Source: Solemya velesiana gill symbiont (lineage in GTDB: Bacteria > Pseudomonadota > Gammaproteobacteria > Chromatiales > Chromatiaceae). From it: a DNA stretch of 63,042 bases. Location of the stretch: positions 1 through 63,042 of the forward strand of contig NZ_MPRJ01000002.1 in the NCBI RefSeq assembly GCF_002020805.1, read 5' to 3'. The notes beneath the pieces were generated by a model. That model made no database searches, was not told where the DNA came from, and saw only the letters and a list, made by a program, of their open reading frames with translations. This document shows positions 20,647 to 23,211 of this stretch, piece after piece (the stretch's first letter is position 1; the number at the start of each line of letters is the position of its first letter). Made by a program: the position numbers and the translations under genes.

Positions 20647-21786
<1,140 letters not shown>

Positions 21787-21832
21787 CTGCTTCCGGCGAC
21801 ACCGCAACCTGTTTTGCTAAGGCTGAGCATCC

Positions 21833-22726
21833 ATCAAACCGATCTTCACACAGGGACCGTCCGTCACCACCCGCGTTGTCATCGCGGTCATGGTGTCGCT
21901 CGCCCTGATGGTTGTCGATCACCGCTATCACCACCTTGAAACGGTAAGGTCCGCGCTCTCGGTCGCCACCTACCCGCTGCACTTCATTGCCGACCTGCCG
22001 GTTTCTGCAACCAACTGGGTAACGGAAGTCTTCGCTACACGCAATCATCTGGAGAGCGAAAACCAGCGGCTGCACAAGGAGAACCTCCATTTCAGGGCAC
22101 GCCAGCAGAAATTCGCCGCCCTCGAAGAAGAGAACATGCGGCTGCGCAACCTGCTCGAGTCCTCGTTCAAAGTGGGCGAACGGATCCTGATTGCCGAACT
22201 CATCGCCGTCGACCTCGACCCCTACCGGCAGCAGGTACTGATCAACAAGGGCAATACCTCCGGCGCCTACAAGGGACAACCGGTACTGGATGCCGATGCG
22301 GTCATGGGCCAGGTGGTCCATGTCAACCGCTACAACTCCACCGTACTGATGATCACCGACGCCAGCCACGCCCTTCCGGTTCAGGTCAACCGGAACGGTC
22401 TGCGCACCATTGCCATGGGCACCGGCCGAATCAACGAGCTTGAACTGCCCCACCTGCCCAACAACGCAGACATCGAGGTCGGCGACCTGCTGGTCACTTC
22501 AGGCCTGGGTGGACGCTTTCCGCCGGGATACCCCGTTGCCGAGGTCGTCTCGGTGGAGCGGGAACCCCAGCAGCCCTTTGCCGTCATCAAGGCACAGCCC
22601 AGCGCGCACCTGGACCGCACCCGGGAAGCCCTCCTGGTCTGGACACTGACACCACCCGAAGCGCGCAGCGAGATTGCCAACGCCAACCCAGACGATCCAG
22701 ATACAACCCAGGGAGCGGAACAATGA
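21833..22726 (+). CDS. mreC: Rod-shape protein MreC, probable AUC start
   Basis: 297 residues if read from ATC 21833. The family-typical N-terminus IKPIFTQGPSVTTR and the full transmembrane helix (RVVIAVMVSLALMVVD) precede the first ATG at 21890, and an in-frame TGA lies just upstream at 21824. No ATG, GTG or TTG exists between. AAGG at 21819-21822 is placed suitably for ATC. Starting at 21890 would cut the membrane helix. The rest is a normal coiled coil (LESENQRLHKENLHFRARQQKFA) and beta-domain. MreC links MreB to PBP2 in the periplasm. Overlaps mreD by ATGA. Confidence 0.88.
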   Translation: MKPIFTQGPSVTTRVVIAVMVSLALMVVDHRYHHLETVRSALSVATYPLHFIADLPVSATNWVTEVFATRNHLESENQRLHKENLHFRARQQKFAALEEENMRLRNLLESSFKVGERILIAELIAVDLDPYRQQVLINKGNTSGAYKGQPVLDADAVMGQVVHVNRYNSTVLMITDASHALPVQVNRNGLRTIAMGTGRINELELPHLPNNADIEVGDLLVTSGLGGRFPPGYPVAEVVSVEREPQQPFAVIKAQPSAHLDRTREALLVWTLTPPEARSEIANANPDDPDTTQGAEQ

Positions 22727-23211
22727 CCCTGGCACCGAAACGCGGCGGCATTGTCATTGCACTGACCATCCTAGTTGCCCTGCTGCTGACCATTCTGCCC
22801 CTGCCTGAATGGGCTCAGCCCTTCCGCCCCCAGTGGCACACCCTGGTACTGATTTACTGGACCCTGGCCCTACCCCAACGGGTCGGCGTCGCCATAGGAT
22901 GGATGATCGGCCTTTCCATCGACGTGATGACTGGCACACTGCTGGGCCAGCATGCACTCTCCCTATCACTGATCGCCTTTCTTACTTACAAGATGCATCA
23001 GCGTGTTCGCCTGTTTCCTCTCTGGCAGCAATCGCTGACCGTGCTGGTACTGCTGCTGCTCGAAAAGCTGCTCTCACTTTGGGTGATGGGTGTTGCGGAC
23101 CGCCCTACACCACCCCTGCTCTACTGGGCGCCGCCACTGGTGGGGATGTTTCTTTGGCCGTGGGTCTATATCATTCTTCGTGACCTGCGCAGGAAATTCC
23201 AGGTCAGTTGA
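22723..23211 (+). CDS. mreD: Rod-shape protein MreD
   Basis: 162 residues, mostly hydrophobic with about five membrane helices. It begins MTLAPKRGGIVIALTILVALLLT and has the LTYWTLALP-like LIYWTLALPQRVGVAIGWMIGL typical of MreD. Integral inner-membrane partner of MreC. Its start overlaps mreC by four bases. Confidence 0.93.
   Translation: MTLAPKRGGIVIALTILVALLLTILPLPEWAQPFRPQWHTLVLIYWTLALPQRVGVAIGWMIGLSIDVMTGTLLGQHALSLSLIAFLTYKMHQRVRLFPLWQQSLTVLVLLLLEKLLSLWVMGVADRPTPPLLYWAPPLVGMFLWPWVYIILRDLRRKFQVS

Follow-up and report, generated by a model that had tools for sequence, protein, structure and literature searches.

The mreC gene of the Solemya velesiana gill symbiont appears, from its own sequence and those of its homologs, to begin at AUC and not at AUG. 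Comparison of aligned genes further indicates that a non-canonical mreC start is shared by much of the class Gammaproteobacteria, beyond the single gene copy first described. It is considered likely that mreC is read from the AUC at 21833 and that this near-cognate start, in combination with a Shine-Dalgarno site, results in low, IF3-sensitive synthesis of MreC, a reading for which there are no expression data. What can be read directly from the DNA is the position of the start, its homology and conservation, and the pattern of Shine-Dalgarno sites.

The window, the whole stretch of 63,042 nucleotides that was analyzed (contig NZ_MPRJ01000002.1), encodes mreB, mreC, and mreD on its forward strand at 20734-23211, so that the gene order expected for MreC is present. 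The gene at 21833-22726 (297 codons and a stop) was identified as mreC by profile searches, which gave matches to TIGR00219 (234.8 bits, cut-off 92.75) and PF04085 (141.8 bits, cut-off 28, E 1.8e-41). The flanking genes served as controls: mreB (20734-21786; TIGR00904 and PF06723) and mreD (22723-23211; TIGR03426 and PF04093) both start at ATG, that of mreD overlapping the mreC stop. Upstream, the mreC frame is closed by a TGA at 21824-21826, which is followed by GCA TCC ATC AAA CCG ATC TTC ACA CAG GGA CCG TCC, the ATC being the inferred start codon at 21833-21835, where fMet is expected. An earlier note on this DNA had argued that the TGA bounds the start to this ATC, and the frame was confirmed, with only GCA and TCC between the two. 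From the TGA to position 21890 there was no ATG, GTG, or TTG in the mreC frame; the first canonical in-frame codon is an ATG at 21890-21892, 19 codons past the ATC and within a hydrophobic stretch. The AAGG that had been reported ten bases ahead of the ATC was found at 21819-21822. It is a modest Shine-Dalgarno-like site, with an anti-Shine-Dalgarno duplex of -3.6 kcal/mol, which is among the weaker values in comparison with the relatives, most of which have stronger sites. No local mRNA structure beyond chance was detected over the mreC start of the window (z 1.15).

The proposal that the MreC N-terminus extends upstream of the ATG at 21890 also held. In the single E. coli record that was compared, the homologous place in mreC reads ATG AAG CCA ATT TTT AGC CGT GGC CCG TCG, and the ATC at 21833 is homologous to the E. 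coli ATG. In the 50 sequences of the family that have ATC, ATT, or ATA (ATH) at this place, the number of differences per site at the three codon phases was 0.73/0.74/0.74 from -45 to -19 of the start, with no codon phase, and 0.70/0.58/0.66 from -18 to -1, a partial conservation located where the Shine-Dalgarno site lies, while codons 2-10 gave 0.27/0.17/0.65, which is a coding pattern. Because the phase pattern is absent at -45 to -19 and present at codons 2-10, the ATH codon marks the onset of the coding signal. At codon 1, the third base differed in 0.44 of the pairs; the first two bases were invariant by construction, as the 50 rows were selected as ATH.

A canonical start, either at the ATG at 21890 in the hydrophobic stretch or at a codon upstream, via frameshifting or readthrough, has support from the Pseudomonas aeruginosa record CP123788, in which the annotated mreC begins at a GTG that lies 16 codons past an ATC. 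This explanation is nonetheless considered very improbable. Initiation at 21890 would remove the motif KP[IL]F..GPS..R, which is conserved at the amino acid level with variation at third positions, and would cut off part of the hydrophobic stretch. Moreover, 141 of the 153 ATH mreC genes had no in-frame ATG, GTG, or TTG within 25 codons upstream, and in 114 of the 141 a stop was found there; the stops were at varying places, so that no upstream start or frameshift site common to the genes was seen. A canonical upstream start was also considered as a candidate in its own right and was rejected: none was shared, and some canonical in-frame codon within 25 codons upstream was present in 12 of the 153 genes.

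The codon that relatives have at this position had been left as a point to check. mreC was detected in 88 of the 92 related genomes searched, and 87 of these were read. Among the 55 genomes of the family, including that of the window, 34 had ATC and 16 had ATT, making 50 in all, four had ATG, and one was unclear. The unclear member (L042, genome G052) had ACC at the aligned mreC codon without a clear alternative, which may reflect either an error in the reads or another unusual start. Loci from named GTDB genomes were also compared, and of the 586 available the 80 most similar to an alignment of ten ATH-start genes all had ATC, ATT, or ATA (49, 22, and 9, respectively). These 80 come in part from the same genomes as the relative search, and one of them (L168) was counted as ATT by eye, as the script returned AAG, one codon off, where the preceding codon was ATT. 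Among these best 80 of 586 were Thiocapsa roseopersicina, Lamprocystis purpurea, Chromatium okenii, Thiocystis violacea, Thiodiazotropha, Sedimenticola, and Candidatus Sedimenticola endophacoides (L108). ATG was found at the homologous place in one mreC record each from Klebsiella, Proteus, Aeromonas, and E. coli; an Acinetobacter record had GTG just ahead of the homologous codon, and a Legionella record had canonical codons upstream.

A base-calling or assembly error at 21833-21835 was considered, as the genome of the window is a draft in 128 contigs, and was found to be scarcely credible: ATC, ATT, or ATA was present in 165 of 259 genomes, some of which are single-contig assemblies (G036 and G042). 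A sequencing error at 21833 was ruled out by the same codon class in relatives.

Neighboring genes were used as controls for these counts. When equal windows of 15 codons around the start were compared, no canonical codon was present in mreC in 131 of 175 genomes, and this was true of mreB in 0 of 175. Looser windows, which extended further into the gene for mreB and mreD than for mreC, gave 136 of 192 for mreC, 0 of 192 for mreB, and 0 of 107 for mreD, the mreD set having been taken from L001-L030 and L091-L170. The infC gene was used as a positive control. By eye, an ATH codon was located near the conserved N-terminus in 28 of 30 infC loci (L306 and L322 did not fit), and 16 of the 30 lacked any other, canonical codon in frame within 40 codons. 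The likeness to infC that had been suggested in the earlier note fits with the infC gene of the window's own genome (L309, on contig 127 of G000), which also appears to start at ATC; an examined stretch of up to 40 codons contained no canonical codon in frame there.

Across the class, mreC was found in 251 of 276 sampled genomes, 33 of them shared with the 88 of the relative search. There were 306 genomes with a match in total, of which 46 were left out and 260 were fetched; one locus (L073) was incomplete and was dropped, leaving 259 that were classified. The start columns were placed by motif or by extrapolation. Ten loci could not be placed by script and nine, one of which was among these ten, were set aside by eye, which removed four that the script had called ATH and four that it had called canonical. 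The 259 genomes comprised 165 with ATH, one with GTT, 60 with a canonical codon, and 33 that were unclear, and in the majority of those that could be classified the third base of the start codon was A, C, or T and not G. By family code, a non-canonical start was present in 74 of 136 and a canonical start in 42, with both in three, and 23 families were represented only by unclear loci. Together with homology and the upstream stop, this breadth supports the AUC start that had been claimed for the window.

The frequency of the trait was lower among more divergent genes. In 50 more divergent loci, most of them from the lower portion of the score list and all with start offsets set by eye, there were 12 ATH, one GTT, 21 canonical, and 16 unclear starts, so that canonical starts outnumbered non-canonical ones, 21 to 13; a further 100 class loci ranked in the upper portion of that list. 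Several additional class genomes lie outside these counts: two that were judged Pseudomonas-like (L385 and L386) had ATC, one (L390) had ATT, two codons after a TTG, and three (L384, L391, and L392) had ATG. Of 45 genomes from outside the class, 35 gave a match, and all 16 of those viewed as loci (L396-L411) had a canonical codon near the mreC start by eye; the other 19 were left out.

A few loci had other codons. In two (L382 in G269 and L226 in G166), a good Shine-Dalgarno site is followed by GTT at the position aligned with the mreC start codon; in L226 an ATC directly precedes the GTT and was counted as the start. In L218 (G219), the upstream stop is separated from the conserved mreC motif only by GTA GGT TCT, and neither a usual start nor an ATH start is found there.

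The history of the codon was examined on a FastTree tree of MreB and MreC from 226 genomes with a classified start codon, from which the first 15 residues of MreC were omitted. Interchange among A, C, and T at the third base was frequent, with 52 changes over 166 tips compared to a mean of 67 when shuffled, while G and not-G were exchanged in only 20 changes, compared to a shuffled mean of 53 and minimum of 46. The direction of change could not be read, because the tree was midpoint-rooted.

The Shine-Dalgarno sites differed between the two groups of genes. A duplex of -4 kcal/mol or lower, a line that was the analyst's own choice, was predicted for 157 of the 166 non-canonical mreC starts and for 17 of the 60 canonical starts (p 2e-14), and the same contrast was present in the 50 divergent loci alone (13 of 13 non-canonical, 3 of 21 canonical). 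In ten independent pairs the comparison was 6.5 to 0, with 3.5 not differing (median p 0.016, range 0.016-0.125). The Shine-Dalgarno sites of mreB had a median of -3.5 in both groups, showing no difference, and those of canonical-start mreC genes had a median of -2.6, weaker than mreB, a difference for which there is no statistical test. The four family members with ATG at mreC (L033, L043, L054, and L056) have nearly no Shine-Dalgarno site (0, 0, 0, and -1.1 kcal/mol) and are a natural contrast set for this trade-off. Tight coupling of mreC to the mreB stop was tried as a candidate feature and rejected, as the distances in 154 non-canonical-start genomes ranged from 16 to 232 bases (5th to 95th percentile).

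The occurrence of strong sites with non-canonical starts, and seldom with canonical ones, suggests two alternative ways of keeping MreC output low. However, low output is not proven, because strong Shine-Dalgarno sites could restore normal output. The start may be a frozen accident, in which AUC is the true start, the strong site fully compensates for it, and MreC output is ordinary and unregulated. Such an accident would account for the association of a weak codon with a strong site, and once the two had become co-adapted a single reversion could be harmful. It is unlikely all the same: ATG is one substitution away, yet interchange between G and not-G is rare, while that among A, C, and T is nearly free, and the canonical-start sites that lie, without a test of the difference, below those of mreB suggest that low output is required in both groups.

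Known examples of bacterial genes that begin at a non-canonical codon are few, and infC is, to our knowledge, the sole one that keeps such a codon over long evolutionary times. If the present reading is true, mreC, an essential morphogenesis gene, is a second broadly kept example. The infC start is ATT in E. coli, ATC in Streptomyces, and AUA in S. aureus (PMC5472188 and PMC13009471), and like that of mreC it is a near-cognate ATH codon behind a Shine-Dalgarno site. However, infC encodes IF3 and is thereby subject to feedback, whereas MreC is a membrane scaffold, so any effect of IF3 on mreC would be one-way. The E. coli pcnB gene has a similarly weak start, an AUU that limits synthesis (Binns and Masters 2002, as cited in PMC1780047, PMC13009471, and PMC9410913). 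In S. aureus, AUU and AUA starts with an extended Shine-Dalgarno site give about 10% of AUG expression, and ccpN up to 30% in rich medium (PMC13009471). As in mreC, the non-canonical start of ccpN (AUA) and cvfC1 (AUU) is conserved, and it is paired with an extended site, where mreC has a strong site in most relatives but a modest one in the window; they encode a staphylococcal repressor and a small protein, not cell-shape proteins, and their starts were demonstrated by Ribo-Ret and reporters, while that of mreC is inferred. In Streptomyces, a GTC start of sigR is repressed by IF3 and sets the sigma/anti-sigma ratio of one operon (PMC5472188); it differs from mreC in its codon, gene, and phylum, GTT being the codon at two mreC loci (L382 and L226). 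The kind of start described here is already known from infC, pcnB, ccpN, and sigR, but mreC as a member, and the breadth of its conservation, were not found in literature searches, which covered only open-licence PMC papers.

By analogy with these systems, the ordinary initiator tRNA would insert fMet at the AUC at 21833, yielding MKPIFTQGPSVTTR ahead of the single membrane helix. The predominance of A, C, or T at the third base makes the start near-cognate, of the sort that IF3 discriminates against, and the Shine-Dalgarno site, strong in most relatives, would bring the ribosome to it. The prediction is that MreC would be synthesized at a low rate, sensitive to IF3, from an mRNA common to MreB and MreD, and lineages with canonical codons, mostly without a good Shine-Dalgarno site, may arrive at low output by another route. 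Actual use of the AUC, low output, IF3 sensitivity, and a benefit for the balance of MreC:MreB:MreD are all inferred. Low or IF3-sensitive MreC is inferred to be the best reading of the start, and the weak start probably keeps the amount of MreC low, in both cases without expression data. The IF3 sensitivity of mreC is inferred because it is known for such starts, as described in PMC5472188 and PMC13009471. MreC self-associates, and its accumulation past a threshold has been suggested as a signal for wall synthesis (Martins et al., PMC8137920), from which it can be inferred that the dose of MreC would matter. More tentatively, and with less than even confidence, mreC may be IF3-controlled in much of the Gammaproteobacteria, such that the ratio of IF3 to ribosomes, through growth rate or stress, would shift MreC relative to MreB and MreD and tie activation of the elongasome to the state of initiation, while lineages without this link would keep MreC low by poor Shine-Dalgarno sites. 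If true, the mreC start would link control of cell shape to the fidelity of initiation.

The start also bears on annotation. In P. aeruginosa CP123788.1 (L330) there is an ATC at 219, three codons past an in-frame stop, with AGGAG ahead of it; the preceding codon is also ATC, and the annotated mreC start is the GTG at 267. The MreC residues named in PMC8137920 (P114, F115, R175, E188, and R190) correspond, by alignment and hand count from the ATC, to P130, F131, R191, E204, and R206. The offset is constant at 16 for all five and equals that of the annotated GTG start. Judging from the sequence, at least one annotated P. aeruginosa record probably lacks the first 16 codons of mreC. The published numbering follows the cut at all five of these residues, so that the cytoplasmic tail and part of the membrane helix may be missing from constructs described as full-length.
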